Source: Streptomyces viridochromogenes DSM 40736 (lineage in GTDB: Bacteria > Actinomycetota > Actinomycetes > Streptomycetales > Streptomycetaceae). Taken from it: 64,000 nt of DNA. The notes beneath the pieces were generated by a model, which was not told where the DNA came from, did no database searches, and saw only the letters and a program-made list of their open reading frames with translations. The position numbers and the translations under genes are program-made. Location: contig NZ_GG657757.1 in assembly GCF_000158955.1 (NCBI RefSeq), forward strand, positions 3,789,391 to 3,853,390, in the 5' to 3' direction. Shown here piece by piece: positions 2,337 through 38,085 of this stretch; positions within the stretch are counted from its first letter, which is position 1, and each line of letters starts with the position of its first letter.

Positions 2337-4514
2337 TCACCTCGCGACCGCCGCCCAGACCACCTTGCCGGTGTCCGTCCACCGCACCCCCCACCGGGTG
2401 GTGAGTCGATGCACGACGTGCAGGCCACGGCCGGCGTCGTCGAGGAGCGCGCCCGGGCCCAGCCGGGGCCTGCCGTTGCCGGTGTCGCCCACCTCGCACA
2501 GCAGCCCGTGACCGGTTCGGATCAGCCGTACCGTGATGGGGCCGCGGGCGAAGCGGACCGCGTTGGTGACCAGCTCGTCGACCACCAGCAGCACGCTGTC
2601 CCGGGTGTCGTCCCTGGTCCGCCACTGCCTCAGCAGCGCGGAGACCAGCGTGCGGGCCCGGGCGGCCGCGTCGTCGCGGGCGGGCAGACGCCAGGTCGCG
2701 GTGTCCTCCTTGCGGTAGCCGATCATGCGCGCGAGCAGCAGGGTCACGTCGTCGCGCCGCCGCACGGGCGCCAGCTCGGAGACCACGTGCCGGGCGGCCT
2801 GCTGCAGGGCGTCCCAGGGGTGCACCGCGGCCACGGCGTCCGCCAGCCTTCCGATGCCCTCGTCGATCGACACGGCGGGGTCCTCCACCAGGCCGTCGGT
2901 GTAGAGGGCGAGCAGCGAGCCCGGGGGCGCGGCGAACGCGTGCACGCCGAACGGCTCCCGCAGCGCGAACTCGGCGCCCAGGCCGGGGTGGGGACGGACG
3001 GCGACCGGGCCGGCCGGTCCGTCCGGGGGCACCAGGACCGGTGGGAGGTGGCCGGCGCTGGAGAGCGCGACGCGGTGGCTGACCGGGTCGTAGACGGCGA
3101 TGCAGCAGGTCGACCCGAGGGCGCTGTAGCCGGCCGCCAGCCCGGACTCGGCGTCGTCCAGCAGCGACACGGTCTCGTCCAAGTGCTCCAGCACCTCGTC
3201 GGGCGCCAGCCCAGCGGAGAGCAGTGCCCGGGCCTCCATGCTCAGCTGTCCCATGGTCGCCGCGGCCCCCAGGGCCGTGCCCGACGACGTCTCCGACCAC
3301 CAGCGCGGGTACGGCCGTCCGGCAACGGGGAAGCTGTTCACCCAGTCACCGCCGACGCCCGCTCTGTCGGGGGTCGCGGGCTGGTAGACGCTGGCGGTCT
3401 CGATGGTGTCGCCGCTGGTCCGCGGGAGGAGACGGCGCTGCAGGGCCAGCACCTGCGTGTGCTCGCGCTGGTGCCGGCGGGCCAGGTCGACGTGGTGGGA
3501 GGTCCTGGCCACCAGTTCCTGGAGGTCGAGCAGCTCGCCGTCGCCGAAGGGGCGGTCCTCCCGCCGCCAGATCTCCGCCAGGCCCAGCACGACGGGTGGC
3601 GTGCCGTCCAGGATCAGCGGTATGCACGCCACACCCGCCGCCCGGTCGCTGGGCACCAGCGCGCGTACCAGGCGCGGGCTGCCGAGGACCCGCTCGATCG
3701 CCGCCCGGTCGGGTATGACGAGGGCCTGCGCGGCATCGTCACGGCGTATCGCCTGCGACAGCAGGCGGCTCGCGTCGCGGGGAAGGTCCTCACCCGGAGT
3801 CACGTAGCCCTCGGGCCACACCCGGTCCGGCACCAGGGCCGCCCGTCGCAGCCGGATGCGTCCCTGCGGCCGCTCGGCGACCCCCTCGCCCGTCCAGACG
3901 GCGAAGTCGAGGTCGACGGCGGCCACGTCTCCCCAGGCCAGCAGGGACTCCGCGAGCGACTGGGCCGTCTCGCCGATGTCCAAGGAGGTGCCGATCGCGG
4001 TCTCGGCGGCGTACAGGTGCAGCCTCCTGGCCATGGCGATCAGGGAGACGGTCAGGCCCTCATGGGGTGCCGCGGCGGCCAGGATGCTCATCGAGACCAC
4101 CATCTCCGACCCGTCGGCGCGGCGCAGGCGCTGGACGCGGGCGACGTGCGGCTCACCGGTGTCGAGGACCTGCCGCAGGCGCCGGGTGACCGTCGGTACG
4201 TCCCCGGACGGCAGGAGGTCGACGAAAGGGCTTCCGGTCACGGCGTCCAGCCCCTCGAAAACGGGGGCGTCCAGGTTGCAGCCGGTGATTCTCAGGTCGT
4301 GGTCCAGGTTGACCGCGCCGAGGATCTGCTCCTGGGGGCCCGAGGCGGGGTCGGAGGTCAGGCGTCGGCGGGCGGGGCGGTCGGGCCGCGGGCCGGCGGA
4401 ATCGGTGGCGGCTGCCGCTCCGCCGCGCGGGATGTACCGCCCCAGGGCGCTGCTGACCGTTTCGAACGGTGACGAGGACGAAGGGGGAGGGGAGGGAGAG
4501 GGTGTGGAGTCCAT
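2337..4514 (-). CDS. PAS/GAF/SpoIIE phosphatase/HATPase regulator with scrambled PP2C motif
   Basis: A 725-residue cytoplasmic regulator of the kind that controls anti-sigma factor antagonists. Order: disordered proline/serine-rich N-terminus, PAS-like segment (about 60-160), GAF-like segment (about 165-345), SpoIIE/PP2C phosphatase (about 375-590), and a GHKL ATPase like RsbW anti-sigma kinases (about 610-725, with the N-box VVDELVTNAV). The first metal motif GGDW is present. The expected second motif GDVVGHG is missing: residues about 400-415 read PYPRWWSETSSGTALG, while the neighbouring frame over the same bases reads VPALVVGDVVGHGPG. A one-base loss near 3313-3317 followed by one extra G in the run 3266-3270 explains this exactly. 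As written the phosphatase should be inactive; a sequencing error pair is the alternative. Confidence 0.85.
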   Translation of the reverse strand: MDSTPSPSPPPSSSSPFETVSSALGRYIPRGGAAAATDSAGPRPDRPARRRLTSDPASGPQEQILGAVNLDHDLRITGCNLDAPVFEGLDAVTGSPFVDLLPSGDVPTVTRRLRQVLDTGEPHVARVQRLRRADGSEMVVSMSILAAAAPHEGLTVSLIAMARRLHLYAAETAIGTSLDIGETAQSLAESLLAWGDVAAVDLDFAVWTGEGVAERPQGRIRLRRAALVPDRVWPEGYVTPGEDLPRDASRLLSQAIRRDDAAQALVIPDRAAIERVLGSPRLVRALVPSDRAAGVACIPLILDGTPPVVLGLAEIWRREDRPFGDGELLDLQELVARTSHHVDLARRHQREHTQVLALQRRLLPRTSGDTIETASVYQPATPDRAGVGGDWVNSFPVAGRPYPRWWSETSSGTALGAAATMGQLSMEARALLSAGLAPDEVLEHLDETVSLLDDAESGLAAGYSALGSTCCIAVYDPVSHRVALSSAGHLPPVLVPPDGPAGPVAVRPHPGLGAEFALREPFGVHAFAAPPGSLLALYTDGLVEDPAVSIDEGIGRLADAVAAVHPWDALQQAARHVVSELAPVRRRDDVTLLLARMIGYRKEDTATWRLPARDDAAARARTLVSALLRQWRTRDDTRDSVLLVVDELVTNAVRFARGPITVRLIRTGHGLLCEVGDTGNGRPRLGPGALLDDAGRGLHVVHRLTTRWGVRWTDTGKVVWAAVAR

Positions 4515-37852: not shown

Positions 37853-37983
37853 GGGACGTGCACCTCCGGCTGCGTGCCTCTACTTTGCGTATCTGCTGCT
37901 GAGCAGACTGCCACCAAGGCGCTTACTACCGCTGGGAAACGGTGGATATGCGGCGGGTACCCGCCAGTTCGGACACGGGCACG

Positions 37984-38027
37984 CCGAGCGGGGCGGGGAG
38001 AGTGTGTGCTCTCCCCGCCCCGCTCGG
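37984..38027 (-). terminator. Perfect 19-bp hairpin terminator
   Basis: CCGAGCGGGGCGGGGAGAG (37984-38002) pairs without mismatch with 38009-38027 around TGTGTG. It follows the GPP34 gene on the minus strand and insulates it from the XRE gene. It is the longest perfect stem seen in the window. Confidence 0.85.
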
Positions 38028-38085
38028 ACAGCGGCTCCCGTGACCGGGCTCTGGGTGCGGCGTGGTGTTCGTGGTGCGGCGCGGC

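Follow-up and report, generated by a model that had tools for sequence, protein, structure and literature searches.

The window considered here is a stretch of 64,000 nucleotides from the chromosome of Streptomyces viridochromogenes DSM 40736 (contig NZ_GG657757.1, positions 3,789,391 to 3,853,390 of the forward strand), deposited as a single contig of 8,653,262 bases with a completeness of 99.99%. It carries an ordinary Streptomyces PAS-SpoIIE-HATPase regulator of 725 amino acids, the features of which are collected in Table 1. The regulator is adjoined by a chalcone/stilbene-synthase-like (type III polyketide synthase) gene at 818-2212 on the plus strand, the two being convergent. Elsewhere in the window (37977-38052) there is a strong terminator-like hairpin, which by eye sits between genes and which is conserved in genome G026.

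The regulator shares its domain order with S. djakartensis JCM 4957 (L155) and other Streptomyces PAS-SpoIIE-HATPase orthologues. Its locus is syntenic with that of G026, and the nearest orthologues are 84-86% identical to it at the protein level, though many of them lack about the first 16 residues. The ATPase half is the RsbW-like anti-sigma domain HATPase_c_2, matched at 55.7 bits (cut-off 27.4; 57.7 bits in a relative), and the score against the RsbA family NF041045 is 44.8 bits, below the NCBI subfamily cut-off of 210. The SpoIIE profile is matched at 118.2 bits (cut-off 25) with the alignment entering only at profile position 13, whereas the relative L009 reaches 153 bits and is aligned from profile position 1.

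Table 1. Features of the regulator gene and of its out-of-frame stretch (window coordinates)
Feature	Position	Strand	Basis or remark
PAS_4-SpoIIE-HATPase_c_2 regulator gene	2337..4514	-	725 codons + stop, open throughout; Pfam PF08448, PF07228, PF13581
Codon 384, Arg (AGA); Ser in orthologues (AGC in 130, AGT in 11 of 141)	3363..3365	-	Sole unprecedented residue at a near-invariant position outside the stretch
Stretch out of the orthologues' frame, about amino acids 396-414	3272..3330	-	Orthologue alignments
First extra base zone, coding-strand run of 4 C	3327..3330	-	3 C in L009, TTTCC in L007; 61/61 orthologues
Second extra base zone, coding-strand run of 3 C	3307..3309	-	2 C in L007 and L009; 61/61 orthologues
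GDVVGHG motif, encoded outside the gene's reading frame	3274..3294	-	In frame in 141/141 orthologue loci
Third extra base zone, coding-strand run of 3 C, main frame resumes	3272..3274	-	2 C in L007 and L009; 61/61 orthologues
Coding-strand run of 5 G, not an insertion	3266..3270	-	Equal length in L007 and L009

Where the GDVVGHG metal motif of the phosphatase should stand, the minus-strand translation of 2337-4514 reads GGDWVNSFPVAGRPYPRWWSETSSGTALGAAATMGQL, and the residues that follow GGDWVNSFP in the gene's frame are VAGRPYPRWWSETSSGTALGAAATMGQL. The GDVxGHG metal motif, a mark of membership in PF07228, is thus absent from the gene's own reading frame. The initial annotation had pointed out that GDVVGHG was missing from this frame and could be read in another, and translation of 3294-3274 bears this out. 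The other acidic metal-site motifs, GGDW, TDGL, and DDVTLL, are present in the translation, and GC3 in the gene's frame stays high to either side of the shifted stretch (0.93 and 0.95).

For orientation we take the phosphatase domain of Bacillus subtilis SpoIIE to belong to the same family, PF07228, and equate the GD of GDVVGHG with its Asp628-Gly629; on this assumption, it is the Asp628-Gly629 position that is replaced in the window translation. In the structure of the B. subtilis enzyme, manganese is held by Asp628, Asp746, and Asp795, while a second manganese could be bound by the suitably positioned Asp610, Asp628, and Gly629 (PMC3517971). The metal-site role of GGDW, TDGL, and DDVTLL is presumed here from that structure and from general background.

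Searching 295 genomes of the genus gave 61 orthologues, with short partial matches and weaker paralogue matches left out. Against every one of them, the window gene has gained three single bases and lost none, each gain being placed to a C run as a whole rather than to one base within it. The first gain throws translation into one wrong frame, the second into the other, and the third restores the original frame, all within about 60 bases (57 nt) and with a net change of +3. None of the 61 orthologues shares the extra base at any of the three sites. An earlier scheme, with the loss of a base near 3313-3317 and the gain of a G at 3266-3270, is therefore ruled out: three gains are found in 61/61 alignments, and the G run is just as long in L007 and L009, two near relatives, and so is ancestral. 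In that scheme the first shift, which puts about 3330-3309 in a third frame, was missed, and two steps of +1 were taken for one of -1.

A wider set adds 80 loci from named genomes to give 141 loci (the two sets share species; 119 distinct proteins). GDVVGHG is in frame in all 141, always 19 residues past GGDW, and a single open frame matches over more than 600 amino acids in 140, the exception (L059) being broken off by a contig end. All 141 loci are three bases shorter than the window gene across the stretch; the alignments around it resolve into exactly three single gains in 134 cases, and into four gains and one loss, again net three, in the remaining seven. A further search covered 392 genomes of the genus and overlapped the first; it brought up no relative nearer than G026 (93%) and G124 (92%) over about 300 bases, and the best-ranked orthologue matches spanned three bases fewer than the query, as read from match spans rather than letters.

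The initial annotation had reasoned that a related genome with an uninterrupted motif would turn the indels into an assembly error, and such a motif is carried by all 141 loci, every one from another species. Of the genomes examined, then, this one alone has the change. Taken by itself, that does not separate a mutation of recent date from an error of assembly.

The rest of the gene looks healthy. Masking codons 384-416 leaves a dN/dS of 0.27-0.33 against eight near relatives, within the 0.21-0.40 found among those relatives themselves, so general decay of the gene can be set aside; outside the shifted stretch the gene shows normal purifying selection. Of 340 near-invariant columns, three show a departure outside the stretch, and two of these use a residue found in some orthologue. 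The third, S384R, replaces a Ser that is present in 119/119 distinct orthologue proteins, and about 33 nt separate it from the first extra base. It uses AGA, a codon with a frequency of 1.46 per 1000 in the gene-like frames sampled and found in this gene only once more, at codon 75. All of the unprecedented changes are thereby confined to about 95 nt.

This confinement bears on the idea that the gene is a decaying pseudogene and that the shifts are its early decay. Several disabling-looking changes do occur together, as that idea would have it, and yet dN/dS outside the patch is like that of the relatives, the unprecedented changes keep to those 95 nt, there is no stop, and no further indel is found past the first 115 nt in comparison with the three nearest relatives. 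We consider decay very improbable.

Codon differences within the stretch were also counted against the 119 distinct DNA sequences. Read in the relatives' frame, 393 of 416 are synonymous, but in the window's frame only 14 of 387. In the flanks, the corresponding figures are 341/695 upstream, where S384R alone accounts for 119 non-synonymous differences, and 1043/1107 downstream. The stretch thus appears to have hardly evolved in its new frame; taken by itself this is weak evidence, because much of the pattern reflects how the relatives evolve.

How unusual such a stretch is within the chromosome was gauged in two sets, one of 384 kb aligned to the syntenic contig of G026 (271,703 bases covered) and another of 400 additional kb set against G009 (237,407 bases covered). 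A stop-to-stop split-frame screen supplied 227 gene-like pairs (85,191 codons), some of which may be wrong-frame shadows; what it otherwise returned was mostly adjacent genes, upstream regions, and such shadows, and those counts were not used. The stricter test asks for a compensated shift of at least 15 nt and for differences biased to codon position 3 on both flanks as a test of coding sequence; it requires at least five differences per flank, so that very similar genes can slip through. Only the stretch in the window gene passes (1 of 227 gene pairs, 1 of 54 out-of-frame segments); the out-of-frame segment at 37977 is, by eye, the terminator-like hairpin mentioned above.

A looser screen returned 14 events in the first set and 12 in the second. 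Besides the window gene, these include eight compensated groups in the first set (6-21 nt) and eight in the second; spans among the 16 are 4-25 nt, apart from two multi-indel stretches in the second set that measure 142 and 147 nt. By eye, we judged the 16 groups to be alignment ambiguity or non-coding. Small compensated shifts, or alignments that look like them, are therefore not rare. The nine net shifts of this screen comprise three isolated single bases (contig positions 3,500,174, 4,120,228, and 4,163,096) and six longer or multi-indel events. No similar cluster of isolated single-base gains was seen in the 237,407 bases compared with G009.

If independent events are assumed to occur once per 50-100 kb, the expected number of places in the genome with three of them inside 57 nt is 1e-5 to 1e-4. 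With so few independent clusters expected, the three gains probably share one local cause, either a poorly called patch or a single mutational burst. A bad patch needs nothing more than low local read quality. A burst must have placed three C in short runs with the frame closed again, and must have happened too recently for anything else to have drifted. Against a bad patch, it should be said that one of this severity is unusual for an assembly of one contig and 99.99% completeness in which only three isolated single-base coding indels, besides the cluster, were listed for about 509 kb aligned. Restoration of the frame also counts against error, as selection would favor closure and error gives it by chance in about one case in three.

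Weighing these points, we favor a sequence error over biology and put the probability at roughly 0.8 that a local patch of wrong bases overlies an intact phosphatase gene, the extra bases presumably being absent from the DNA of the cell. The initial annotation had left the choice between a phosphatase-dead regulator and two sequencing errors; the second option is the one favored, in amended form, with three gains in place of one gain and one loss. In what would be a short low-quality patch at about 3270-3365 on the plus strand, three C bases would have been overcalled, and S384R is probably one miscalled base in the same patch. Three overcalls together make up a whole codon, which closes the frame and keeps the gene open, and in this way an error could mimic a clean loss of the active site. 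The gene in the cell would then most likely encode an intact SpoIIE-type PP2C phosphatase together with a PAS domain and an RsbW-like ATPase, and its product, to judge from these families, an ordinary partner-switching regulator.

The alternative is that the sequence is correct and represents a very recent allele with three single-base insertions, perhaps made in one burst during error-prone synthesis. The strand and metal loop RTALVVGDVVGHG would have been swapped for unrelated residues, leaving a phosphatase-dead protein that keeps its PAS and ATPase domains and could still bind or phosphorylate an anti-sigma antagonist, but without the reversal. The sequence is open from end to end, the HATPase score is normal, GGDW, TDGL, and DDVTLL are intact, and the three gains close the frame, all of which is in keeping with such an allele. 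Its difficulties are that runs of only two or three C are, to our knowledge, no hotspots of slippage, that three events in 57 nt with no decay elsewhere demand a very recent event, and that one of the core strands of the phosphatase fold is presumably among the replaced residues, which makes misfolding likely. The synonymous pattern within the stretch fits a new frame that has barely evolved, but an error yields the same pattern. We regard a real allele as unlikely, and hold as improbable its fuller form, in which one clustered mutational event newly gave rise to a phosphatase-dead SpoIIE-HATPase protein, so that what had been a two-way partner switch now acts one way only, as an ATPase regulator, with its frame left open. 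Gene conversion was also considered as a source of the stretch. The protein in this genome that comes second in similarity is only 38% identical, and no donor copy was found among the DNA matches listed.

Sequence error as the preferred explanation can be set beside other frame breaks in the same assembly. At least four further genes contain a single-base break, and two of these are SpoIIE paralogues. At about 3,500,174 (G000:C1; locus L157, about 10,784) a base is missing and an isomerase-like gene is split into two frames; its match to phosphoglucose/phosphomannose isomerases is weak (49.1 bits, cut-off 295), and it is taken to have a SIS domain. Eleven of 12 other genus genomes have one unbroken match to it, and the twelfth, which is 79% complete, has none. 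At about 4,163,096 (L239), a SpoIIE paralogue has gained a base past its phosphatase part and ahead of its HATPase part; the counterpart of this gene in G009 forms one frame of about 600 amino acids, as do those presumed in G026 and G124. The second paralogue (L238, at about 1,125,2xx) shifts frame after AELDFPP, as judged from translation only, in a short G/C run downstream of an intact GDVVGHG.

The last case, at 4,120,228 (L204), is an extra base that splits a gene for DNA polymerase III alpha (dnaE) into two frames. A break in an essential gene would have been proof of assembly error, but this dnaE is accessory: only two of the 12 other same-genus genomes searched show a close homologue, and an uninterrupted homologue lies elsewhere in the genome (2,255,545). 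Hence it proves nothing. Real pseudogenes may underlie the other breaks, too; taken as a group, the breaks lend plausibility to residual indel errors. One SpoIIE match pair in G124 is likewise divided between frames near a contig end, which means that such splits are not unique to this assembly.

Because all three extra bases extend C runs, and because two SpoIIE paralogues of this genome also break frame within short G/C runs, one may think of programmed frameshifting or of phase variation as a means of restoring the enzyme in some molecules or cells. However, the sites occur in no orthologue examined, several separate shifts would be needed for each active site, and runs of three or four bases are, as far as we know, too short for phase variation as usually described. 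We give this idea almost no credence.

Among the literature matches listed (titles and abstract starts on SpoIIE-HATPase proteins, pseudophosphatases, and assembly indels), nothing concerned this gene. A parallel is offered by a study in which singleton frameshifts validated by BLASTp were expected to be sequencing errors and not genuine indels (PMC3711429). The present case resembles those singletons in that the change is found in one genome only and that homologues support the intact frame. It differs from them in that the three shifts compensate one another, to which a frameshift check based on stops is probably blind.

Should the sequence prove correct, loss of the GD site and of the preceding strand is predicted to abolish phosphatase activity and to leave the ATPase domain, and the strain would offer a natural experiment in which a partner-switching regulator has had its phosphatase half parted from its kinase half. 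As a probable error, the case calls for caution: overcalls that total a multiple of three keep an open gene of normal length and would escape stop-based checks, yet they delete an active site and can lead to a false pseudophosphatase call.
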